From contig CALVVM010000048.1 in NCBI GenBank assembly GCA_944363855.1, positions 1 to 33,720 on the forward strand: 33,720 bases of DNA, in the 5' to 3' direction. Shown here piece by piece: positions 21,059 through 33,161 of this stretch. The notes beneath the pieces were generated by a model. The model saw only the letters and a list, made by a program, of their open reading frames with translations. It was not told the DNA's origin and did no database searches. The position numbers and the translations under genes were made by a program. Positions within the stretch are counted from its first letter, which is position 1. Each line of letters opens with the position of its first letter. The DNA is from an uncultured Bacilli bacterium (GTDB lineage: Bacteria; Bacillota_I; Bacilli_A; RF39; UBA660).

Positions 21059-23215
21059 TTAGATTTTTTTAGGATTTAAGTCTATTTCTAGTGTTATTTT
21101 ATTATTAGTTTTAGATTTTTCTACTATGAATTTTAATTTATCATATACATCTTTTATATTTTTATACTTAATTATTATTTGCATATAATACTTATTATAT
21201 ATTTTAGGAACTGTACAAGGACTTGGACCTAGTACTATATAATTACTATCGTTTAAATATTCTTTTATTTTTTGCGCTTCAATATTTAATTCACTATAAT
21301 CAGTACTTACTAATTTTATTAAGCAAAGATTAAAGTATGGCGGATATTTTAATTTTTTTCTTATACTCATATCCTCTTTATAAAAACTATCGTAATTATT
21401 TTTAGAGGCATACTCTATACTATAATGATCAGTATTAAAGCATTGAATAATAACTTTACCTGGTTTAATACTTCTACCTGATCTACCAGATATTTGATTA
21501 AGTAAACTATATGTTCTTTCACCACTTCTAAAGTCTGGAATATTTAAAGTTGCATCTCCATTTATAACACCTACTAAAGTAACATCATCAAAATCAAGTC
21601 CTTTAGATATCATTTGCGTCCCTATTAAAATATTATACTTTTTATTTCTAAAGTCATTTATTATTTTTTCATGACTACCTTTTTTTCGTGTTGTATCTAT
21701 ATCCATCCTAATAGTTTTACATTTAAATAATCTATTTACTTCTTCTTCTAGTTTTTCTGTTCCTATACCAAAACTATTTATATTTTTACTATTACATTCA
21801 GGACAATTTAAAGGTTTAAAAGTTGTATGATTACAGTAATGACAATTAAGTTTATTACCTGTTTTGTGATAAGTTAAGGGTATATCACAGTTAGGACATT
21901 TTATAGTAGTACCACATTCTTTACAAGTAATAGTAGTTGAGTATCCCCTTCTATTTAAAAGAAGTATTACTTGTTCATGCTTGTTTAATCTATCATTTAT
22001 ATCATCTATTAACTCTTTAGAAAGTATTCTATACCCTTTTTTTATTTCTTCTTTCATATCTATTAACTTTACGTCAGGCATGGTTTTATTTACTCTATTT
22101 TTTAGTTCAAGTAATTTATATGTACCAAGTTTAGCTCTAGTATATGATTCTACTGATGGAGTTGCACTACCAAGTATTATTGGGCAGTTATAGGTTTTAG
22201 CCCTTTTAATAGCTATATCAATAGCATCATATTTAGGATTATTATCTTGTTTATATGTATCTGAGTGTTCCTCATCAAGAACTATTAATCCTATATTAGT
22301 TAGGGGTGCGAATATAGCACTTCTAGCACCTATAACAATAGAAACTTCTTTTCTTTCTATCTTTCTCCATTCATCATACTTTTCACCATCTGATAAAGCA
22401 CTGTGTAGGATAGCTATAGAATCTTTAAATCTACTTTTAAATATACTAACCATCTGAGGAGTTAAACTTATTTCTGGAACAAGTACTATAACTTCTTTAC
22501 CCTCTTTTAAAACACTTTCAATTATATTCATATATACTTCTGTTTTACCACTTCCAGTTACTCCATGAAGAAGATATGGAATAAACGTATCTTTATTTTC
22601 TAGTACTGTATCTACTACTTTTTGTTGATCTTCATTTAGTATAACTCTTTTATCATTATAAGAATTAGTATTATTTAATCTATATGTCTCTTCTTTTATT
22701 TCTTCTATTACTTTTTTACTTAATAATGTATTTACACTTGAAACTGATATTTTAGTTAAATCACTTTTTAAAGCATTACCTAATTTTAATATTTCTATTA
22801 TTTCTTTTTGATTATCATTTTTAGGTATATATTCTTTATCTATTAAACTTATATAACTTATATATTTTTTATTTACATTAAAGTTATTGTGTGCTTTTAA
22901 AGCTGCAGGTAACATCGTTTGATATGAATGTATTAAATTACACAGAGTTTTTAAACTAATATATTTACCAAGTTCTAACATTTCTTCATTTAAAACAGGT
23001 TCTTCATCTATAATATCTATTATTTCTTTTATTTCATAATCTATATCTTTATCTTTTCCTATATTTAATACAAATCCTTCTAAAGTTTGTTTTCCAAAAG
23101 GTACAAGCACTCTTATACCTACTTTAACTTTATCTTTAAGATTACTAGGTATTAAATAAGTAAATGTTTTATCTATTCTTTTAGCTTTTAACTCTACTAA
23201 TACATCAGCAAACAT
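21059..23215 (-). CDS. priA: Primosomal protein N' (PriA helicase)
   Basis: 3'-5' superfamily 2 helicase that reloads the replisome at stalled forks. It has an N-terminal 3'BD (FADVLVELKAKRIDKTFTYL), then a winged-helix region. Walker A is GVTGSGKTE (about 219-227) and Walker B DEEH (about 314-317). The zinc-binding insert has paired CxxC motifs (CKECG, CPNC, CHYC, CPEC; about 425-475), followed by motifs V and VI (QMISKGLDFDDVTLV; QISGRSGR). Start placed at ATG 23215 because GGGTGATAGT is the ribosome site, giving 718 residues. Short promoter-leader directly upstream. Confidence 0.96.
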   Translation of the reverse strand: MFADVLVELKAKRIDKTFTYLIPSNLKDKVKVGIRVLVPFGKQTLEGFVLNIGKDKDIDYEIKEIIDIIDEEPVLNEEMLELGKYISLKTLCNLIHSYQTMLPAALKAHNNFNVNKKYISYISLIDKEYIPKNDNQKEIIEILKLGNALKSDLTKISVSSVNTLLSKKVIEEIKEETYRLNNTNSYNDKRVILNEDQQKVVDTVLENKDTFIPYLLHGVTGSGKTEVYMNIIESVLKEGKEVIVLVPEISLTPQMVSIFKSRFKDSIAILHSALSDGEKYDEWRKIERKEVSIVIGARSAIFAPLTNIGLIVLDEEHSDTYKQDNNPKYDAIDIAIKRAKTYNCPIILGSATPSVESYTRAKLGTYKLLELKNRVNKTMPDVKLIDMKEEIKKGYRILSKELIDDINDRLNKHEQVILLLNRRGYSTTITCKECGTTIKCPNCDIPLTYHKTGNKLNCHYCNHTTFKPLNCPECNSKNINSFGIGTEKLEEEVNRLFKCKTIRMDIDTTRKKGSHEKIINDFRNKKYNILIGTQMISKGLDFDDVTLVGVINGDATLNIPDFRSGERTYSLLNQISGRSGRSIKPGKVIIQCFNTDHYSIEYASKNNYDSFYKEDMSIRKKLKYPPYFNLCLIKLVSTDYSELNIEAQKIKEYLNDSNYIVLGPSPCTVPKIYNKYYMQIIIKYKNIKDVYDKLKFIVEKSKTNNKITLEIDLNPKKI

Positions 23216-23251
23216 ACTATCACCCATTTAATTATAACAAATTTGAATAAA

Positions 23252-23275
23252 GAAAAAAAGTATAATTATATACTT
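23252..23275 (-). terminator. Terminator of the Smr gene
   Basis: Minus strand AGTATA-TAAT-TATACT followed by seven T; it overlaps the end of the gene. Confidence 0.7.
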
Positions 23276-23532
23276 ATTTTAGCTATTGTACAACCTACAT
23301 TATTATAGAATAATTTATATTCTTTTATATCTTTACTTCTTTTTAAAGTATTGTGTACTTCCTGCTTTATAGTACCACTTCCAACTCCATGTACTATACA
23401 AATAATATCATTTTTCATTGTCTTATTATCTTTAATAAATTCTAACACTTTTACTCTAGCAGTATCTCTATCTAAACCGTGCAAATCTATACTAGGCAAA
23501 TCATTAACAAATATAACTTCTTTTAGTTCCAT
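23266..23532 (-). CDS. Stand-alone Smr domain protein
   Basis: An 88-residue protein consisting of one Smr domain, the endonuclease-type module at the C-terminus of MutS2. Signature residues are IDLHGLDRDTA (about 15-25) and HGVGSGTIKQEV (about 49-60). MutS2 bodies end in just such a domain, but no MutS2 remnant precedes it here, so it is a free-standing protein. Role possibly in DNA or ribosome/mRNA quality control; unknown. GGTGGT precedes the ATG. Confidence 0.85.
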   Translation of the reverse strand: MELKEVIFVNDLPSIDLHGLDRDTARVKVLEFIKDNKTMKNDIICIVHGVGSGTIKQEVHNTLKRSKDIKEYKLFYNNVGCTIAKISI

Positions 23533-23568: not shown

Positions 23569-24438
23569 TTATTTTCTTTTTAAAACCTTTTGAAATTCAT
23601 TTTCTTTTATAAGACCATTAGAAGTAAATGAATAATTAATAATAACAATATTATTATCAATTATTTCTGCAGTCAAAAAACCTGGTTTTACTATTACATC
23701 TTTAAGTTGAGGATTAGATACGTAATAAACTGGATCGTCGCACATTGGAGGTATATAAATTTTTTCACTTTTTCCATTTGCTTTTTCTTTTATATGATAA
23801 AAATGAGAATGTCCTTTAAAAGATATATATTCTGCATTAAATGGCAAATTTAATTTAAAATTTTCTATATCGTGCTGCAAACTAATTATATTTCCACACC
23901 ATTTCAAATATGCTTTTTTAAATCCCAACATATTTATATCATTTCTGGAGCATAAAATATCTCTTATTGTTTCATTTTCATTAATTGCTAAATAATCATG
24001 ATTGCCAAACAATGCAAAAGTATTAATACTTTTGTCACAAGGATATTTATTTATAAAATAATTTGCTTGTTTTATAGGACTACATCTTTTTTTAGGCTTA
24101 ACATTAGATTCTATAATATCACCACCATGAAGGATAATATGTATACCATTTGCTACAGCAAAATTAAATACATCATATGTATAATTCATATTTTGGTATA
24201 TTGATCCACAATGGTTGTCACTAATAATTAAAAGTTTATTATCTTCTATATTAGTTTGATACAAATAATTATATATGTTTTCATTATACTTACCAGTTGA
24301 ATAAAGAATGCTATATAATACATTATAATTTAAAAATGGGTAATTTTCTTTCAATGAATTGAAATCATAATTTTTTTCAAAATAATTACAAACTTCATTA
24401 ATTAAACTATTATCAATTTCTGCAAAACTTTTAATCAT
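23569..24438 (-). CDS. Calcineurin-like metallophosphoesterase
   Basis: A 289-residue protein whose metal ligands are all visible: ISDNHCG (D-x-H), HGGDIIE (GD), FGNHD, SLQHD and GHSHFYH. An N-terminal helical part of about 70 residues precedes the catalytic domain. Substrate unknown: phosphodiesters, nucleotides or phosphoproteins. It has a consensus promoter and lies outside the 32-base repeats that bound the neighbouring island, so I do not count it as part of that operon, although it could be related. Confidence 0.88.
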   Translation of the reverse strand: MIKSFAEIDNSLINEVCNYFEKNYDFNSLKENYPFLNYNVLYSILYSTGKYNENIYNYLYQTNIEDNKLLIISDNHCGSIYQNMNYTYDVFNFAVANGIHIILHGGDIIESNVKPKKRCSPIKQANYFINKYPCDKSINTFALFGNHDYLAINENETIRDILCSRNDINMLGFKKAYLKWCGNIISLQHDIENFKLNLPFNAEYISFKGHSHFYHIKEKANGKSEKIYIPPMCDDPVYYVSNPQLKDVIVKPGFLTAEIIDNNIVIINYSFTSNGLIKENEFQKVLKRK

Positions 24439-24649: not shown

Positions 24650-24949
24650 TTAATCACTAATTCTTACATTAATCCCATCTATATTTTTATATACACGTTT
24701 TTCATTCTTAGAAACTTTTTTTTCAATTTCGTCCGCCAAATCAAAACCTAGCATTTCAGATAATCCCATTAAGTAAATAGCAATATCAGCTAATTCTTCA
24801 TTCAAATCATCTTTTTTCTTTTTCCAAGCATCATATGCTTCAGAAACTTCTCCATATAATAAGCAAAATTCTTTATTCACATCTGTTGTATTAAATCCTT
24901 TGTTTAATTTATTTTGCCAAATATCTTTTTGAATCTTTTTTAATTCCAT
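24650..24949 (-). CDS. MazG-like nucleotide pyrophosphohydrolase
   Basis: An all-helical 99-residue MazG/dUTPase-2 superfamily protein expected to hydrolyse an NTP or dNTP to NMP and pyrophosphate. Metal-binding motifs: LYGEVSEAYDAW (Glu34, Glu37) and EELADIAIYL (Glu51/52, Asp55). Start set at ATG 24949 by AAGGAGG. That site lies inside the end of the preceding gene, and the two overlap by 41 bases, so translation is probably coupled. Last gene of the island operon. Between it and the repeat (24581-24649) I see no gene. Substrate unknown, perhaps the abnormal nucleotide handled by its neighbours. Confidence 0.85.
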   Translation of the reverse strand: MELKKIQKDIWQNKLNKGFNTTDVNKEFCLLYGEVSEAYDAWKKKKDDLNEELADIAIYLMGLSEMLGFDLADEIEKKVSKNEKRVYKNIDGINVRISD

Positions 24950-26498
24950 GTTTTTCCTCCTTAAAATCATTGTAATATTCTATTACCTTATTAACATTAT
25001 ACTCTAAAAATTTATTTAATTCAATCTCACTAAGTGTTTTATCGTTAACAATAGTATATACTGGAATAGTTCGTCCATCAACTAATAAATATCCAAAATT
25101 TTCACCTGTTTTTATATATTCAAATATATCTTTTGAATATACATTGTCCATAGTATCATCAGAAACATAATGTCCACCATTTTCAAATCTTATTCTATTT
25201 CTATTTTTTCTTGTTTCTAAACTAGAAACTAAATTAACAATAATAGAGTTGCTGTTGTTTTCTAAATTATTAATAAAACTTTCTATACTACGAAAATATG
25301 CGTTTTGAGAAAATTGTGACTCATATAGTTCATCCTTACCTCTTGAGAACTGGATTATATTGTGTGTTTCTGAATTTACAACTGACATTTGAATTATATA
25401 ATCCCATAGAATAGGTCTTATTATATCGTGTCCATCTCCCAGCTTTGCAGGTTTAGTATAGTGATTTATTGAATTTATATTATCATTATACTCTTCCCAT
25501 ATTTTATTAACATATTTAAGTTTATTTTTAATTTTTTTAAATTCTTCTATTTTATTTTGATACAACAAATCATCTAACATAAACGTTTCTAATAATGGCG
25601 CTAGATCATCTATATCTGAATATATATTATAGTAGTTTTTAAAATAATCAATAAAGGTTGTTTTTCCAGCACAAGAATTACCTATAACAATAATATTATT
25701 AGGAAGTAATTTTGATTTGGTAGTTTTATCTATACGAGACTCTATATATAATAAAGGTCCTATATTTTCTATAGATCTGCTAGAATTATAGATTCCTTGT
25801 GAAATAGATTCATCTATATCTTGATTAATTATATATTTTGATAAGAAGCCACCAATAAATGAATCTCCAGCACCAGTAGTAGATTTAATATTATGGTTGT
25901 TTATTACATTATAACTAATTGTATTCGTTGACGTTATTGCAATGACAGGCTTGTTTTCATTTGTTACTATTACTAATGGTATATCTTTTACATACTTTTT
26001 TATTATATTGTACTCATTAACATTACAAAATAAGATTTCTATTTTTGAAGTATATTTTTCTATTATAGGTATAAAATCTACAACACTATGTATCATAACA
26101 TCTACCGAAAGATGATTATAATTTAATAATTTATTTTCTAAAATACTTTGGACATCTACACCTTTTCTTAATGACACATGCAAATGATTGACATCTATTT
26201 TTGTTTCTAATTTAATTATATCTCTATTATAAAATTGTGATTCACAGGTAGATTTTGATTCATCAATTATAAACTCTGTCATTCTATCAACGATAGTTCC
26301 ATAAAACTCTATTTGTTTTTCTTTTAATAGTAAATTTGTATCGCTATCTACTTTACTTATTATTGCAATTCTGCCATCAAAAGAAGCCCTTGAAGAAAAG
26401 CTTGAATATATACAACTTCCTCCTAATGTATTGTAAGTTTCATTATTTACAACGATTTTATCATTGGAAGAATTACCTACATAACATAAATCAATCAT
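24909..26498 (-). CDS. PfkB-family kinase fused to a P-loop kinase domain
   Basis: A 529-residue two-domain protein. Residues 1 to about 250 are a ribokinase/PfkB fold: LGGSCIYSSF near the start (substrate glycines), TTGAGDSF at 207-214 with the catalytic Asp. PfkB members phosphorylate sugars and nucleosides. Residues about 265-529 are a P-loop nucleoside/nucleotide-kinase-like domain: Walker A GNSCAGKTT (273-281), then SRGKDELYESQF and ETRKNRNRIRFE as candidate lid/Arg region. Two kinases in one chain suggest two successive phosphorylations, or one kinase plus a regulator. It overlaps the preceding gene by ATGA. I know no characterised protein with this fusion. Confidence 0.8.
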   Translation of the reverse strand: MIDLCYVGNSSNDKIVVNNETYNTLGGSCIYSSFSSRASFDGRIAIISKVDSDTNLLLKEKQIEFYGTIVDRMTEFIIDESKSTCESQFYNRDIIKLETKIDVNHLHVSLRKGVDVQSILENKLLNYNHLSVDVMIHSVVDFIPIIEKYTSKIEILFCNVNEYNIIKKYVKDIPLVIVTNENKPVIAITSTNTISYNVINNHNIKSTTGAGDSFIGGFLSKYIINQDIDESISQGIYNSSRSIENIGPLLYIESRIDKTTKSKLLPNNIIVIGNSCAGKTTFIDYFKNYYNIYSDIDDLAPLLETFMLDDLLYQNKIEEFKKIKNKLKYVNKIWEEYNDNINSINHYTKPAKLGDGHDIIRPILWDYIIQMSVVNSETHNIIQFSRGKDELYESQFSQNAYFRSIESFINNLENNSNSIIVNLVSSLETRKNRNRIRFENGGHYVSDDTMDNVYSKDIFEYIKTGENFGYLLVDGRTIPVYTIVNDKTLSEIELNKFLEYNVNKVIEYYNDFKEEKHGIKKDSKRYLAK

Positions 26499-26992
26499 TT
26501 CCTCACCAATTTCTTTACTTGACTTCTAACTTGTTCAATATTTGCTTCGTGAGTATTTATAGCAATTACATCTATAAATTTAGATGAATATTCCATAATT
26601 TCATCATATTTTTTATTTAATTCTTCATAATGATTTGTGATAACTTCATAATCACTTTTTTCATCATTTCTTCTTTTTAATAAAACATCTTTAGGAGCTG
26701 TTAAATAAATAATTTTAGCTCCGGCATTTTTATATGCAATTAATAGTTTTGTATAATCTTCAAGACTTAATTTACATTTATTTCTTATAACTGGTCCATA
26801 AACCATTTCACTAATAAATGATCTATCTAGTACCAATTCACTATCATCTTCTAATAAAACTTTCATGTATTTTGAAAATAAATCCATGTTTTTTGAATCA
26901 TAATCAAAATGATATTTTTTCATTCCACAACTTTGTAAATGCTCAACTAAAGTTGTTTTACCTACACCATCTATACCTTCTATTATTAACAT
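26495..26992 (-). CDS. Thymidylate/deoxynucleoside-kinase-like protein
   Basis: P-loop kinase of 165 residues, shorter than dTMP kinase (about 205-215). Walker A GIDGVGKTT (6-14), DR motif LDRSFISEMVYGPV (Asp56-Arg57, as in dTMP and deoxynucleoside kinases), YLTAPKDVLLKRR and a short lid. The family phosphorylates dNMPs or deoxynucleosides; which one cannot be told here. Its stop shares ATGA with the start of the PfkB fusion. The housekeeping class II tdk is elsewhere (17620), so this is an accessory kinase. Confidence 0.82.
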   Translation of the reverse strand: MLIIEGIDGVGKTTLVEHLQSCGMKKYHFDYDSKNMDLFSKYMKVLLEDDSELVLDRSFISEMVYGPVIRNKCKLSLEDYTKLLIAYKNAGAKIIYLTAPKDVLLKRRNDEKSDYEVITNHYEELNKKYDEIMEYSSKFIDVIAINTHEANIEQVRSQVKKLVRK

Positions 26993-27012
26993 TAGAATTC
27001 CCCCTTTAACTA

Positions 27013-27774
27013 TTATTTCCTACATTTACATTTTACTTCAACACAATCTCTTAATGGACAATTTTCAGGATTATGTTTATTGCAAAAAAAGCGTTTATAA
27101 TAAATAAGAACTAAATGACAAAACCATGTAGCATTATCATAATTTTCTACTTTAAGTTCTTCATATCCATTTTGTTTTATTATTTCTTCCATATTATTAT
27201 TTTTTACTAGTGCTTCTAATTCTTTTCTTAAAATATCGTGCCCTAGTGCGTTTTTATATTGTTCAAATCCTAAACAAGGTAATTCTACATCCTTCATACC
27301 ACTATCCACTGGCATTATACCTGAATAATATCCTCTTATGTACAAAACACAACATTGTGCTACTTTGTAAGATGCACCACTAACATTATCAGCAATTAGT
27401 TTAATCAATTCATCATTAGATAATGTTTTTATTTCATTATCATATTTTTCTATAAAATCAATCATTGATGACAAATATTTATATCTTGTATTTGATAATC
27501 CTAATCCTTTGATTATATTAATTATTTCTTCTTCCGTCATATTTTTGATTTCATCATAAGTGTAACCTTTCAAATCATTTATTACTTTTCTATAGCTATC
27601 TATCATATTATAAGAAATTCTAGTAGAAAGACCAGCAATCAATAATCTTTTTCTATAATCTTCTACTTCTAATGGCCACCATAAGTTATTGTCGTGATTC
27701 TTTTTTACTGCATCTCTTACTTCTTCTTGGTTACTACATATATCAATAATCTTTTTAAATTCTCCTCTTGTCAT
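27013..27774 (-). CDS. HhH-GPD (endonuclease III-like) protein with altered Cys cluster
   Basis: A 253-residue HhH-GPD superfamily protein, which normally excises damaged bases. The hairpin GASYKVAQ corresponds to GVGRKTAN of EndoIII and keeps the catalytic Lys (137), though without the usual glycines. MPVDSGMKD keeps the catalytic Asp (157) of VDTHV. The C-terminus has five Cys: C231-X7-C239-X4-C244-X4-C249-X-C251, unlike the C-X6-C-X2-C-X5-C iron-sulfur loop of EndoIII. The N-terminal part contains NNLWWPLEVEDY. It may act on a special base, or bind DNA/RNA or a nucleotide without glycosylase activity. AAGGAGG precedes the ATG. Confidence 0.8.
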   Translation of the reverse strand: MTRGEFKKIIDICSNQEEVRDAVKKNHDNNLWWPLEVEDYRKRLLIAGLSTRISYNMIDSYRKVINDLKGYTYDEIKNMTEEEIINIIKGLGLSNTRYKYLSSMIDFIEKYDNEIKTLSNDELIKLIADNVSGASYKVAQCCVLYIRGYYSGIMPVDSGMKDVELPCLGFEQYKNALGHDILRKELEALVKNNNMEEIIKQNGYEELKVENYDNATWFCHLVLIYYKRFFCNKHNPENCPLRDCVEVKCKCRK

Positions 27775-27785
27775 ACTTACCTCCT

Positions 27786-28427
27786 TTAAATATTATTGTC
27801 TCTTTTAATCTTTGCAAATAAACTTGAATTGCTTGAAATAATTTGTGTATTCAACTTATATTCTAAGTTTTCTATTACGCCAATTGTAGGTAAATTTGTA
27901 CAAGATATAATAATATTTTCATATTCATTTAAGTAATTTTCTTTTATTAATTTTTCTAATTTATTTATTCCATAATTAAAATAATCTGCAGTATGTAATA
28001 AATCTAAATTTATATTTTTTATAACTTTTATTCCATTATCTTCTAACATTTTTACTATTTCTTTTCCTAATTGATCATTATATGGAGTTATTAATAAACA
28101 TTTTTTAACATTTCTTAATTTTGATTCCTCAATTAATGAAATAGTTGGATTTATTTCTTCTACTCCATTTTCTAATGCTGAAGTAGTACAAAAGAACGCA
28201 TTATAATCAACATCTAAATATTCTAAATCCTTTTTCTTATTATTTATATCTATAGCAAGTTCTTCTAGAAATTTTGATTTATCTTTCTTATAATTTGTTT
28301 TATAATCTAGTTTAGATATATAAAATACACTTTTTTCTATATCGAAATATCCTTTACTAAAAAGCATTTGTAATTCATATTCAACAGTCAAATTTGTTTT
28401 TGGAATCAACAATCCTATTTTTTTCAT
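27786..28427 (-). CDS. Maleate isomerase / Asp-Glu racemase superfamily protein
   Basis: A 213-residue member of the cofactor-free Asp/Glu/hydantoin racemase superfamily, closest in pattern to maleate cis-trans isomerase and arylmalonate decarboxylase. It starts with IGLLIPKTNLTVEYE, then Cys80 in FFCTTSALENG and Cys176 in ISCTNLPTIGVIENLE, followed by ISSN. Two facing Cys are used for proton transfer on a carboxylate or ring substrate. It is not the cell-wall racemase; murI is at 11779. Start overlaps the radical SAM stop (ATGA). In a nucleotide operon the substrate may be an unusual acidic or ring-opened intermediate. Confidence 0.8.
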   Translation of the reverse strand: MKKIGLLIPKTNLTVEYELQMLFSKGYFDIEKSVFYISKLDYKTNYKKDKSKFLEELAIDINNKKKDLEYLDVDYNAFFCTTSALENGVEEINPTISLIEESKLRNVKKCLLITPYNDQLGKEIVKMLEDNGIKVIKNINLDLLHTADYFNYGINKLEKLIKENYLNEYENIIISCTNLPTIGVIENLEYKLNTQIISSNSSLFAKIKRDNNI

Positions 28428-29932
28428 ATTAATTCTCCAATAATTGTTCTATTACCGATGTATCCAACCACTTTAACTTTATAAAATTCATCTAATTTTA
28501 GTTCCTTATTTAAAATTACAACTCTTACCGGACATGTACCCATTTGTCTTAGAATTGAATTACCATCTTTATACATTTCCATTCTTAATTCGCTAATTTC
28601 TAAGCCAATTGGAAAAACATTTTTTAACATTGGAACGATAAATTTGTTTTCTATTGTTTTACTCCAAAAATTAAATTCTTTTAAATCTTCTTCACTATAA
28701 TTATCAAATTGTTCACCATAAGGAGAAGTTAATTTTCTAACAAAAACTCTTCTTACCCAATTTCCAGAATTTAATATTTTATTAAAATTATCTAAATTAT
28801 GTCTTAATGTATTTTCATTTTGCCCATCTAATCCATAAATTATATTAATACCTGGAAGTAATTCAGGCAATCCATTTTTACCTCTTTCTTTTCCATATTT
28901 ATTAATTATAGATATTGATTTATGAACATCATCTAAAGATCCATTTAAATTACATTTTTCTCTTATTATTGGATCGAATGATTCAATTCCAAATGGTGTA
29001 ATGTTTCCTGCTGTAGTATATTTAGCCACTAATTCAGTTATCTTTTCACCTTCTTTAGTATTTACATTATGAGGACTTACATTATCTATATGCAATGTTT
29101 TGATATTTGGACAGGCACTCCAAATTCCTTTAAATAAGTTTTCTATTTCTTCTACATTACAATTCTTATAAGCATAAAAATTTGGTTGCCTTCCTAATCT
29201 AAAGTATAGCGCTCCAACATCATATAAACTTTTTATTTCATCTATAATATCTTCTTTTTCTCTAAACTGTAATGGTAAACCTCTCATTCCTTCTATACAA
29301 AATGTACAACCTGGATTTCTATTACATCCTGTAGCTGTTTCTATTTCAATTACTAAAGGTCTTTCTATTTGTTCTAATACACTCGATGAATCAATTGCAA
29401 TTTGTCTTAAATTATCATAATTTGGATTAAACTTATTGCCGTTTTCACCAATAAAATAATTATAAGTATTACCAAAAATAATATTATTAAATAAATTGCT
29501 AGGTACTGTTTTTCTAATGTTTTCTCTTGTTAATTCACTTCCACCAAGAGAATAAAATAATAATTTATTAGTTTCTTTGTTACAGAAAAGATTTAATAAT
29601 TTTTCTACTTCTAAAAAAGTAGGAGGTTCTGCTGAAACATATTCATATTTAACAAAACATCCCATTACAACATAAATATTTGTTGCATTCTTCAATATTT
29701 CTGAAACGTTGTTAGCATTTTTTGTTTTGTTTATTATTCTTTTATTATATGAATTATCAGAATGTTTTTCTCCATTTGCAAAACGTAAATCATCAATTGT
29801 TAAATAAAAATAGTTAATGTTTTTATTTTTTAAAGCTCCTGCTATATATCTAGAATGTACACTTAAATATGGTGGTACGCCTAATCCTGATGGCTCATCT
29901 GTATAACAATCTATTATTACATCATATTTCAT
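28424..29932 (-). CDS. Radical SAM enzyme with a CX5CX2C cluster motif
   Basis: A 502-residue protein. Residues 1 to about 190 form an N-terminal domain beginning DCYTDEPSGLGVPPYLS, perhaps a B12-binding-like Rossmann fold without obvious cobalamin motif. The radical SAM barrel starts with EIETATGCNRNPGCTFC: Cys203, Cys209 and Cys212, spacing CX5CX2C instead of CX3CX2C. Then DVGALYFRLGRQPNF, FGIESFD and PGINIIYGLDG follow. The C-terminal 30 residues resemble a small beta barrel. N-terminal and cluster motifs recall archaeal COG1031-type radical SAM proteins; that is memory, not a search. ATG 29932 chosen because AAGGAGG precedes it. Confidence 0.85.
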   Translation of the reverse strand: MKYDVIIDCYTDEPSGLGVPPYLSVHSRYIAGALKNKNINYFYLTIDDLRFANGEKHSDNSYNKRIINKTKNANNVSEILKNATNIYVVMGCFVKYEYVSAEPPTFLEVEKLLNLFCNKETNKLLFYSLGGSELTRENIRKTVPSNLFNNIIFGNTYNYFIGENGNKFNPNYDNLRQIAIDSSSVLEQIERPLVIEIETATGCNRNPGCTFCIEGMRGLPLQFREKEDIIDEIKSLYDVGALYFRLGRQPNFYAYKNCNVEEIENLFKGIWSACPNIKTLHIDNVSPHNVNTKEGEKITELVAKYTTAGNITPFGIESFDPIIREKCNLNGSLDDVHKSISIINKYGKERGKNGLPELLPGINIIYGLDGQNENTLRHNLDNFNKILNSGNWVRRVFVRKLTSPYGEQFDNYSEEDLKEFNFWSKTIENKFIVPMLKNVFPIGLEISELRMEMYKDGNSILRQMGTCPVRVVILNKELKLDEFYKVKVVGYIGNRTIIGELI

Positions 29933-29945
29933 CTTAAGTTCCTCC

Positions 29946-30440
29946 TTAATCAATTAAAGTTATAACATGGAATGGAATTACCTTTTCTTTTAGTTCTAAT
30001 AGTGCTAAAAATAATATATCATGTGTATCATCAATTAGAATAGCTAATTCGCATTCGTTCGAATCTAATTTTTCTCTTATTTTATCAATTTTTATTTTCT
30101 TTCTAGATTCAAAGTTTTGTGATAAAACAAAAATTTTATTTTTTTCTTTAATATATGGCATATATTTGTCAAGCCACAAACTTTTTTCCTCTGCTTGTTC
30201 TTTATATAAGCATGAACTTAATATAAACATTTCACAATCTATTTCATCATTAATCCTTTGTAAATTATTTATTGTAGTATATATAGGTCTCTTATTTAAA
30301 TATAGTCCAGGTTTATTGTTCTTTATATTTTCTCCTTCTCCAAATCTGTAATCTGCTACAACTCCATCCATATCTACAAAGATGGAAACTTTCTTAAAAT
30401 TGTTTTCTATTATTTTTTTTATTTCTTCTAATAAATACAT
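29946..30440 (-). CDS. HAD-superfamily 5'(3')-deoxyribonucleotidase-like protein
   Basis: A 164-residue HAD phosphatase like the NT5C family that dephosphorylates (deoxy)nucleoside monophosphates. Motif I is FVDMDGVVADY (nucleophile Asp23, acid Asp25), motif II LSS, and motif IV LIDDTHD. A Lys for motif III is available near residue 119. Start placed at ATG 30440, six bases after GGAGG; the upstream frame extends to 30461. It is first in the island operon and is followed after 13 bases by the radical SAM gene. Substrate within the family unknown. Confidence 0.85.
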   Translation of the reverse strand: MYLLEEIKKIIENNFKKVSIFVDMDGVVADYRFGEGENIKNNKPGLYLNKRPIYTTINNLQRINDEIDCEMFILSSCLYKEQAEEKSLWLDKYMPYIKEKNKIFVLSQNFESRKKIKIDKIREKLDSNECELAILIDDTHDILFLALLELKEKVIPFHVITLID

Positions 30441-30460
30441 AGAATACCTCCAACTAATCA

Positions 30461-30466
30461 TATTAT
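30461..30466 (-). promoter_or_regulatory. Probable -10 element of the island operon
   Basis: TATAAT on the minus strand within CATATTATAACAT (read on plus), about 20 bases before the HAD gene. The -35 region is poor, so strength is uncertain. It is inside the island, which therefore carries its own promoter. Confidence 0.5.
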
Positions 30467-30529: not shown

Positions 30530-30561
30530 TTTATTAATTATTTTCTTTAACTACAGCTTGT
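30530..30561. repeat. Direct repeat: functional ppdK 3' end (right)
   Basis: 32 bases identical to 24549-24580; here they form the real end of the ppdK reading frame. Confidence 0.85.
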
Positions 30562-33161
30562 GCAGCAGCTAGTCTTGCTAGAGGTACTCTAAATGGACTA
30601 CAAGATACATAGTCAAGTCCTACCTTATGACAGAATTCAACACTACTTGGTTCTCCACCGTGTTCTCCACATATACCCATATGGATATCAGGACGAGTTG
30701 ATTTACCAAGTTTAGCTGCCATTTCAACAAGTTTACCTACACCATTTTGATCTAATTTAGCGAATGGATCATTTTCAAAAATTCCTTTTGTATAGTATTC
30801 ATTTAAGAATTTAGCAGCATCATCTCTTGAGAAACCATATGTCATTTGAGTTAAGTCATTAGTTCCAAATGAGAAGAATTCAGCTTCTTTAGCTATTTCA
30901 TCTGCAGTAAGTGCAGCTCTTGGAATTTCTATCATTGTTCCAACATGATAAGTAAGTTCTACTCCAGCTTCAGCAATTATAGCATCTGCAGTTTCGCATA
31001 CTACTTTTTTAACATATTTTAATTCATTAATATCTCCAACAAGTGGAATCATTATTTCAGGAATTATGTTCATACCTTTTTTATTTACATTGATTGCAGC
31101 TTCAATAACAGCTCTAGTTTGCATTTTAGCTATTTCTGGATATGTAACAGCTAATCTACATCCTCTGTGTCCCATCATTGGATTGAACTCTTTTAATGAT
31201 TCAACACGATTTTTAAGTGCTTCAAAGCTCATTCCTAAACTTTCAGCTAAAGCTTTAATTTCAGCATCTGTATGAGGTAAGAATTCATGTAAAGGTGGAT
31301 CTAAGTAACGAATTACAACTGGATCTCCTTCCATAGCTTCAAATAATCCTTCAAAGTCTTTTCTTTGATATGGTAAGATTTTTTCTAAAGCTTCTTCTCT
31401 CATTTCAACAGTATCAGCAGCAATCATTCTACGGAAGTTGAAAATTCTTTCTTCTTCGAAGAACATGTGTTCTGTACGGCATAGACCTATACCTTCAGCG
31501 CCAAATTTACGAGCTTGAATTGCATCTCTTGGTGAATCAGCATTAGTTCTAACTTTAAGTCTTCTAACACTATCTGCCCATCCCATAAATGTTTCAAAAT
31601 CTCCACTTATTTCTGGTTCAACAGTTTTAACTTGTTCACCGTATACATTACCAGTTGAACCATCTAAGCTCATCCAGTCTCCTTCTTTGTATACTTTACC
31701 ATCAACTGTTTTAACAGTTTTAGCTTCTTCATCTATAACAAGTTCACCACATCCAGATACACAGCAAGTACCCATACCACGAGCAACAACTGCAGCATGG
31801 CTAGTCATACCACCACGAATAGTTAAAATACCGTGAGCAATATTCATACCTTCTATATCTTCTGGACTAGTTTCAAGTCTAACAAGTAATATATCTTTTT
31901 CTCCATTTTTAGCAGCTTCCATAACATCTTCTGCAGTAAAGTAAATTTTACCAGTTGCAGCACCAGGTGAAGCAGCTAATCCTTTAGCAACTACTTTAGC
32001 AGCTTTTAAACTATCAGCATCAAAGTTTGGATGTAATAATTGATCTAATTGTTTTGGTTCAACTTTTAAAAGCGCTTCTTCTTTAGAAATCATTCCTTCA
32101 TTTACTAAATCAACAGCTATTTTTAAAGCAGCTTGAGCAGTTCTTTTTCCGTTACGAGTTTGTAACATGAATAGTTTACCGTTTTCAATAGTAAATTCCA
32201 TATCTTGCATATCTTTATAATGATTTTCAAGTATATTACAAATATTTACAAATTGATCATAGCAATCAGGCATAACTTCTTTTAGAGTATCGATTGTTTG
32301 TGGAGTACGAATACCAGCAACAACGTCTTCTCCTTGAGCGTTCATTAAATATTCACCATATAATTTCTTTTCTCCAGTAGCTGGATTTCTTGTAAATGCA
32401 ACACCTGTACCACAATCATCTCCACGGTTACCATAAACCATTTCTTGAACGTTAACAGCAGTTCCCCAACTAGATGGGATGTCATTTAATCTACGATAAG
32501 TGATTGCTCTATCGTTATTCCAACTTCTAAATACAGCTTTTACTGCTTCTAATAATTGATCTTTTGGATCTTGTGGGAAATCTACACCAGCATGATTTTT
32601 GTATTCATTTTTGTAAATTTCAACAACTTCCATTAAATCTTCAGCAGTTAATTCTGTATCGAATTTAACTCCTTTTTCTTCTTTGATTGCATCGAATTTT
32701 CTTTCGAAAGAACTTTTTGGGAATCCCATAACTACATCAGCAAACATTTGAATAAATCTTCTATAACTATCGTATACAAATCTTGCATTGTTTGTAGCTT
32801 TAGCAAATCCTTTAGCAACTTCATCATTTAAGACTAAGTTTAAAACTGTAGCCATCATACCTGGCATAGATGCTCTAGCACCACTTCTAACAGATACTAA
32901 TAATGGATTTTCCATATCTCCAAATTTCTTTCCAGATTCTTTTTCAAGTCCTTCTAAGTGACTTAAAATTTCATCTTTGATTTCCTCGGAAATGTCTTCT
33001 CCATCATCATAATACTTAATACATGCTTCAGTAGTAACAGTAAATCCTTGTGGAACAGGAAGCCCAATACCTGTCATTTCAGCAAGGTTAGCACCTTTAC
33101 CACCTAACAAGTTACGCATGTCTTTGTTACCTTCTTTAAAGGCATAAACATATTTTGTCAT
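30534..33161 (-). CDS. ppdK: Pyruvate, phosphate dikinase
   Basis: Interconverts pyruvate, ATP and Pi with PEP, AMP and PPi; in anaerobic Bacillota it is often glycolytic. At 875 residues it is normal length. The N-terminal ATP-grasp domain (NLLGGKGANLAEM, SVRSGARASMPGMM) is followed by the swivelling phosphohistidine domain with GGMTSHAAVVARGMG (Thr453, Ser454, His455). The C-terminal TIM barrel has the acid/base Cys831 in GICGEHGG. Positions match the Clostridium symbiosum enzyme. AAGGAGG precedes the ATG. Monocistronic. Its last nine codons are the insertion point of the 6-kb island. Confidence 0.98.
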   Translation of the reverse strand: MTKYVYAFKEGNKDMRNLLGGKGANLAEMTGIGLPVPQGFTVTTEACIKYYDDGEDISEEIKDEILSHLEGLEKESGKKFGDMENPLLVSVRSGARASMPGMMATVLNLVLNDEVAKGFAKATNNARFVYDSYRRFIQMFADVVMGFPKSSFERKFDAIKEEKGVKFDTELTAEDLMEVVEIYKNEYKNHAGVDFPQDPKDQLLEAVKAVFRSWNNDRAITYRRLNDIPSSWGTAVNVQEMVYGNRGDDCGTGVAFTRNPATGEKKLYGEYLMNAQGEDVVAGIRTPQTIDTLKEVMPDCYDQFVNICNILENHYKDMQDMEFTIENGKLFMLQTRNGKRTAQAALKIAVDLVNEGMISKEEALLKVEPKQLDQLLHPNFDADSLKAAKVVAKGLAASPGAATGKIYFTAEDVMEAAKNGEKDILLVRLETSPEDIEGMNIAHGILTIRGGMTSHAAVVARGMGTCCVSGCGELVIDEEAKTVKTVDGKVYKEGDWMSLDGSTGNVYGEQVKTVEPEISGDFETFMGWADSVRRLKVRTNADSPRDAIQARKFGAEGIGLCRTEHMFFEEERIFNFRRMIAADTVEMREEALEKILPYQRKDFEGLFEAMEGDPVVIRYLDPPLHEFLPHTDAEIKALAESLGMSFEALKNRVESLKEFNPMMGHRGCRLAVTYPEIAKMQTRAVIEAAINVNKKGMNIIPEIMIPLVGDINELKYVKKVVCETADAIIAEAGVELTYHVGTMIEIPRAALTADEIAKEAEFFSFGTNDLTQMTYGFSRDDAAKFLNEYYTKGIFENDPFAKLDQNGVGKLVEMAAKLGKSTRPDIHMGICGEHGGEPSSVEFCHKVGLDYVSCSPFRVPLARLAAAQAVVKENN

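Follow-up and report, generated by a model that had tools for sequence, protein, structure and literature searches.

A mobile seven-gene operon around a radical-SAM enzyme lacking the helix-hairpin-helix tail of its COG1031-type relatives

Composition, spread and mobility of the cassette

The real point of interest in the 33,720-nucleotide stretch of DNA analysed here (the window), from an uncultured Bacilli bacterium, is the operon around a radical-SAM enzyme, a cassette that moves as an exact 5.8-kb unit among unrelated sites in RF39-like Bacilli, Clostridia and Dojkabacteria. The whole mobile cassette (24650–30461, minus strand, ~5.8 kb) lies between ppdK (30534–33161) and the smr/priA region (21059–23532). 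Its genes run in the order NT5C, radical SAM, two-cysteine isomerase, endonuclease III (EndoIII)-like, dTMPK-like, PfkB/P-loop and MazG, all on the minus strand, with operon-like stop/start overlaps between several neighbours (28424–28427, 26495–26498). Most of the encoded proteins belong to nucleotide-, sugar-kinase- or base-acting families.

The first gene of the operon (29946–30461) encodes an NT5C-type HAD 5'(3')-deoxyribonucleotidase with a DMDGVVAD motif (Pfam NT5C, 34.3 bits against a cut-off of 24.8) and keeps its place across cassettes. The radical-SAM gene (28424–29932) is followed by a gene (27786–28427) for a protein of the arylmalonate decarboxylase/maleate isomerase/Asp-Glu racemase superfamily, assigned through profile matches and conserved cysteines. 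Racemases and maleate isomerases have two cysteines and arylmalonate decarboxylase one; judged by its sequence, the cassette protein retains both putative catalytic cysteines (C80 and C176), as the racemases and maleate isomerases do. Beyond the EndoIII-like gene (27013–27774) lie three genes assigned from profile matches, for a dTMP-kinase/deoxynucleoside-kinase-like P-loop kinase of 165 residues (26495–26992), a 529-residue PfkB-family kinase (GAGD motif) fused to a second P-loop kinase-like domain (GNSCAGKTTF; 24909–26498) and a MazG-type (d)NTP pyrophosphohydrolase of 106 residues (24650–24970). MazG is the most conserved of the cassette proteins, with 74–91% identity outside Streptomyces. 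A metallophosphatase gene that adjoins the cassette in the window (23569–24438), with congener homologs only ~30% identical, was rejected as a member as it was not found beside other cassettes, and a hairpin and T-run upstream of NT5C in two loci (L033 and L037) was set aside as not being common to the others. An Rfam scan of the locus found no RNA element.

Among 288 genomes of the host's order a full-length copy of the radical-SAM gene is present in six, the window's own included, with 77–82% identity, the other matches being marginal fragments; the gene is absent from the sampled congeners. Both the radical-SAM and the EndoIII-like (HhH-GPD) gene occur in these six genomes and in no others of the order, a perfect co-occurrence. 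A scan of GTDB genomes gave 15 named loci, 67–87% identical, in Bacilli MAGs, Clostridia-labelled MAGs and one Candidatus Dojkabacteria MAG, where the cassette sits on a 143-kb contig. In none of these loci does the radical-SAM gene stand alone: 11 of the 15 have all seven genes in an unchanged order, and the remaining four are truncated at contig ends. The flanks vary from locus to locus and include, with names assigned from sequence, uvrB, secA, recR/rnhC, a penicillin-binding protein, an IS3 transposase, HNH and HD genes. In two of the loci, L033 and L037, a block of exactly 5838 bp is 94% identical within unrelated flanks; it runs from ~50 bp before NT5C to just past the stop codon of mazG, and nothing comparable in similarity lies beyond it. 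An empty site is seen in a congener (G663), where ppdK, smr and priA follow each other without the cassette. At the same site the nearest congener (G661, ppdK 96% identical) has only mazG (95%; L139, G661:C10, 5776–6093), beside phosphodiesterase-like and NUDIX genes, as though its companions in the cassette had been lost or mazG retained alone. In one locus (L029, 5834–7080) IS3-type transposase genes, a possible vehicle for the cassette, lie ~100 bp past mazG.

The base composition bears on the direction of movement. In the Dojkabacteria MAG the cassette has a GC content of 26.9% against 34.6% in its surroundings, and in a Clostridia MAG (L039) 27.2% against 36.3%, whereas in Bacilli it equals that of the host. 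An AT-rich cassette in these richer hosts, matched to the host in Bacilli, suggests that the donor of the Dojkabacteria and Clostridia cassettes was AT-rich and Bacilli-like. Directly before the Dojkabacteria cassette is a decayed 3' fragment of ppdK (L038, 9179–9440; 55% identity over 69 residues, with an in-frame stop), and the occurrence of ppdK before both this and the window cassette hints at a donor in which the genes were arranged likewise. In the Clostridia MAG, which is from roe deer, the radical-SAM frame is interrupted close to its end and the PfkB fusion falls into two parts (L039, 10001–15036), through either sequencing error or decay. No relatives of the cassette were found, by protein or DNA, in viral_contigs or in 50,697 phage records, and a viral or phage origin was rejected on that account.

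Streptomyces carries a separate form. A tblastn search of plasmids found full-length radical-SAM homologs on four Streptomyces plasmids (30–31% identity) and on one haloarchaeal plasmid. The order on the Streptomyces plasmids examined is radical SAM, isomerase, HhH-GPD, PfkB, nucleoside 2-deoxyribosyltransferase, dNK and MazG; six components are common to both forms, the deoxyribosyltransferase being found in Streptomyces in place of NT5C and the extra P-loop domain. Relative to the window cassette the HhH-GPD protein is 34–37% and MazG 46–53% identical. The GC content of the Streptomyces copies equals that of their hosts, from which we infer an older residence. A 92-residue radical-SAM fragment (42% identity) on the plasmid of Streptomyces NBC_01724 (L073, 6001–6276) is probably a decayed copy.

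The radical-SAM enzyme and its HhH-bearing relatives

The radical-SAM reading frame, on the minus strand (a point that the sequence-only reading had left unstated), starts with an ATG at 29932 and encodes 502 residues; a TTG at 29953 was rejected as the start as it is not kept in relatives. Sequence conservation confirms the gene as real, far beyond chance, the close relatives being 77–82% identical over their full length and the distant ones matching with E-values of ~1e-53 to 1e-69. The cluster-binding cysteines of the CX5CX2C motif, Cys203, Cys209 and Cys212 (GCNRNPGCTFC), sit where the sequence-only reading had placed them and are invariant in 39 homologs. The start of the protein to which that reading drew attention, DEPSGLGVPPYLS, is likewise present and conserved, with D/E-P..GVPP invariant in the homologs. 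No N-terminal cysteine that could hold an auxiliary [4Fe-4S] cluster is conserved across the homologs. With the triad supplying the only cysteines conserved family-wide, nothing points to an auxiliary cluster as sulfur donor, and such a cluster was rejected.

Pfam recognises only the Radical_SAM domain (37.6 bits against a cut-off of 29.5), NCBIfam gives faint matches to the MiaB family (22.1 bits against a cut-off of 251) and a sequence search of the PDB found no relatives. The predicted structure (pLDDT 75, pTM 0.80) has a three-domain MiaB/RimO-like fold, N-terminal Rossmann-like, radical SAM and TRAM-like, and matches RimO and MiaB over the whole length including the C-terminal strands, with Z-scores of 18–20 over ~400 residues (RimO 4jc0, 20.1; MiaB, 18–19). 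The cassette enzyme nevertheless differs from the MiaB/RimO/MtaB methylthiotransferases in being only 12% identical to them, in having no conserved cysteine beyond the triad and in scoring 22 bits where the family cut-offs are 251–357. The CX5CX2C motif is also found in HcgA/HmdB (PMC10100467). These are HydE/BioB-like enzymes of [Fe]-hydrogenase cofactor synthesis, whereas the cassette locus has no hmd genes and similarity to them was not detected; despite the shared motif, the HcgA/HmdB models are absent from the NCBIfam matches of the radical-SAM protein (E≤1).

The kinship with COG1031-type proteins, in which a radical-SAM domain is followed by a C-terminal HhH, was proposed from the sequence and is borne out by full-length homologs with 27–36% identity in Natronorubrum and in the Clostridia phylum. 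We take COG1031 to be the label of this HhH-bearing family, on the basis of domain architecture; no paper naming COG1031 was found in the open-access literature. The haloarchaeal homolog, Natronorubrum bangense WP_006067939, matches the cassette protein with an E-value of 9e-53 (tblastn, plasmids) and 28.7% identity. In the Clostridia phylum a broader family profile found a homolog in 28 of 398 genomes (27 besides G670), with E-values of 1e-97 to 1e-123. Over the full radical-SAM protein 61 residues are near-invariant between the cassette enzyme and these proteins (N. bangense and clostridial L074–L092), and the (V/T)DEP..GVPPY N-terminal loop is common to them. Each of the 19 clostridial homologs read has a C-terminal HhH of ~55 residues, as does the N. 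bangense protein, and Pfam HHH matched the tail of one of the clostridial homologs. The cassette proteins, on the other hand, stop at ~502 residues without this tail, are 27–36% identical to the family, make up a separate side of the tree and are found inside a nucleotide operon. The cassette enzyme represents a new branch, without the HhH, within a family that is known but uncharacterised.

The CX5CX2C motif had been singled out as unusual, and within the family it is not: all 19 of the HhH-bearing clostridial homologs read share it, which makes it the norm for the COG1031-type family, while the archaeal protein has CX3CX2C. The length of the cluster loop therefore varies inside one family: CX3CX2C in the haloarchaeal member (L072, 8974–10701), as against CX5CX2C in those clostridial and cassette members that were read. 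The suggestion of acquisition by transfer stands as far as horizontal spread is concerned; a specifically archaeal affinity does not follow from the identities or the tree, in which archaea are represented by a single sequence. The haloarchaeal protein is 41% identical to one clostridial homolog over 98% of its length, and the cassette enzyme is 27–36% identical to the clostridial proteins and 28–31% to the archaeal one. In a maximum-likelihood tree (unrooted, with long branches and one archaeal sequence) the cassette enzymes lie apart from Clostridia and the archaeon, and those of the Bacilli type, Clostridia and Dojkabacteria group with Streptomyces with support of 100/99. In 5 of 15 loci the clostridial HhH-bearing genes precede genes for Thiamine_BP, a cysteine desulfurase and ThiI (e.g. 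L095, 3959–6650), and the latter two neighbours hint at a link with sulfur or tRNA thiolation for the wider family.

The endonuclease III-like protein

A separate HhH protein had been noted two genes downstream of the radical-SAM gene, and one is indeed encoded there (27013–27774, minus strand). It is a 253-residue HhH-GPD protein whose predicted structure (pLDDT 80, pTM 0.67) has the fold of EndoIII and related glycosylases, with Z-scores of ~10–12; Foldseek alone gave weak matches (best E 0.009) and the PDB sequence search reached EndoIII only at E ~0.14. Two methods align Lys137 and Asp157 with Lys120 and Asp138 of E. coli Nth, although the profile score itself is weak. Relative to Nth, with which it shares the fold (Z ~11–12) and the equivalents of this residue pair, the cassette protein is strongly divergent and has its own invariant motifs, NHD.N.WWP and R.R.L.AG.STR.SY. 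The C-X6-C-X2-C-X5-C loop that binds the Fe-S cluster is not kept in all cassette members: the spacing differs in every one, and those of Streptomyces are without the first cysteine.

It had been supposed that the two genes represent a bacterial split version of an archaeal COG1031 protein, with the downstream HhH protein replacing the C-terminal HhH. Such a split would fit the full-length homology of the radical-SAM protein to the HhH-bearing family, but the downstream protein is a whole EndoIII fold, unrelated to the missing tail; it differs from the fused tail in fold and is ~5 times longer. A profile of the fused, ComEA-like HhH tail fails to match the downstream protein, with 2.8 bits at best against the cassette HhH proteins, which is not significant, and the fused family is bacterial as well as archaeal. 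The idea is largely refuted, and we regard it as very improbable. The EndoIII-like gene is absent from the sampled clostridial genomes with the fused form, and among 289 genomes of the Clostridia phylum the HhH-GPD protein occurs only in the cassette-bearing one. The cassette enzyme is without a tail, and nothing in these comparisons shows it to be split.

Proposed function

We consider it an evenly balanced proposition that the radical-SAM gene is the core of a self-contained mobile operon that makes a modified (deoxy)nucleotide or nucleoside. This is inferred from the nucleotide-type gene set (MazG, NT5C, two to three kinases, a glycosylase fold and, in Streptomyces, a deoxyribosyltransferase) together with precedents. 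MazG and NT5C would supply or drain a (deoxy)nucleotide, which the MiaB-fold, HhH-less radical-SAM enzyme may alter chemically in the nucleotide itself or its sugar; the intermediate would be processed by the two-cysteine isomerase and the PfkB/P-loop kinases and the product phosphorylated by the dTMPK-like enzyme. The maker may then be protected by MazG, which would destroy the triphosphate, and by the EndoIII-like glycosylase, which would remove the analogue from DNA, parts that a triphosphatase and DNA glycosylases play in known nucleoside and genotoxin clusters.

The closest precedent is thmA-C of Photorhabdus, in which a radical-SAM enzyme, a nucleoside kinase and a self-resistance NTPase make 4'-thiothymidine (PMC12691670), and DNA glycosylases confer self-resistance in several biosynthetic clusters (PMC9040887, PMC8626424, PMC8934636). 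Both thmA-C and the cassette are compact and sporadic, with changing neighbours, and combine a radical-SAM enzyme with a nucleoside kinase and an NTP-hydrolysing enzyme. They differ in having three genes as against seven, an isomerase, a glycosylase, NT5C and PfkB being unreported for thmA-C (PMC12691670), and they are likened by gene content, not by the sequence of ThmA. The combination of radical SAM, MazG and thymidylate kinase was not found in the open-access literature, nor was a description of such an operon. The biological role could be that of a nucleoside antibiotic or a similar competition molecule. Against an antibiotic-type role, the cassette has no transporter or regulator gene, and hosts with genomes of 0.7–1.3 Mb are unlikely as antibiotic makers.

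The main rival to nucleoside synthesis is modification of a nucleic acid. In the phages whose thymidine is hypermodified, the nucleic acid itself is the substrate of kinases, radical-SAM enzymes and transferases of HhH origin. By analogy, MazG and the nucleotidase would manage the canonical (d)NTP pool, the kinases would either phosphorylate a base or produce a modified dNTP, and the EndoIII-like and radical-SAM proteins would act on DNA (or RNA) to hypermodify it. The retained catalytic pair of the EndoIII fold, the full-length fit of the radical-SAM fold to MiaB/RimO including the C-terminal strands, the sharing of one operon by MazG, dTMPK-like and NT5C genes and the hint of nucleic-acid thiolation from the cysteine desulfurase and ThiI genes near the HhH-bearing clostridial relatives (5 of 15 loci) are all consistent with this. 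However, homologs are absent from the phage records and viral contigs, the cassette enzyme is without the HhH, and the cassette is not accompanied by any polymerase, restriction or repair partner. The phage pyrophosphorylase (aGPT-PPlase) was also unmatched in Pfam (E≤10) and PHROGs (E≤0.1), searches that would miss divergent members. On this evidence hypermodification seems rather unlikely.

A sporadic, mobile and compact operon with the logic of a radical-SAM enzyme plus a nucleotide kinase could also suggest an anti-phage system making a nucleotide that terminates chains or is toxic in some other way, with a function like that of the prokaryotic viperins. PADLOC gave no match to the radical-SAM protein (E≤0.1) and only weak, generic P-loop matches to the dNK-like kinase, and a known defence system was rejected as no PADLOC assignment was obtained. 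The flanking genes read contain no recurrent defence neighbours, and the CX5CX2C MiaB-fold enzyme is unlike viperin in every search, leaving a defensive function improbable.

The minimal unit with exact borders, its transfer across phyla and its retention by hosts, tiny-genome gut bacteria among them, with genomes of 0.7–1.3 Mb suggest that the cassette should confer something valuable. Tentatively, and with the balance tilting a little against it, the cassette may represent an undescribed class of mobile nucleotide-modification operon. At its core would be an EndoIII-like glycosylase and a COG1031-type radical-SAM enzyme put to new use, and its product would be a new nucleotide or DNA modification of natural origin, made by bacteria with ultra-small genomes, including Candidatus Dojkabacteria, and separately by Streptomyces. 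A first function could follow for a radical-SAM enzyme of the COG1031 type, a family of archaea and clostridia whose characterisation was not found in the open-access literature. The cassette offers a testable route to a new nucleoside or nucleotide, and it is an instance of metabolic genes passing between Bacillota and Candidatus Dojkabacteria for which GC content hints at the direction.
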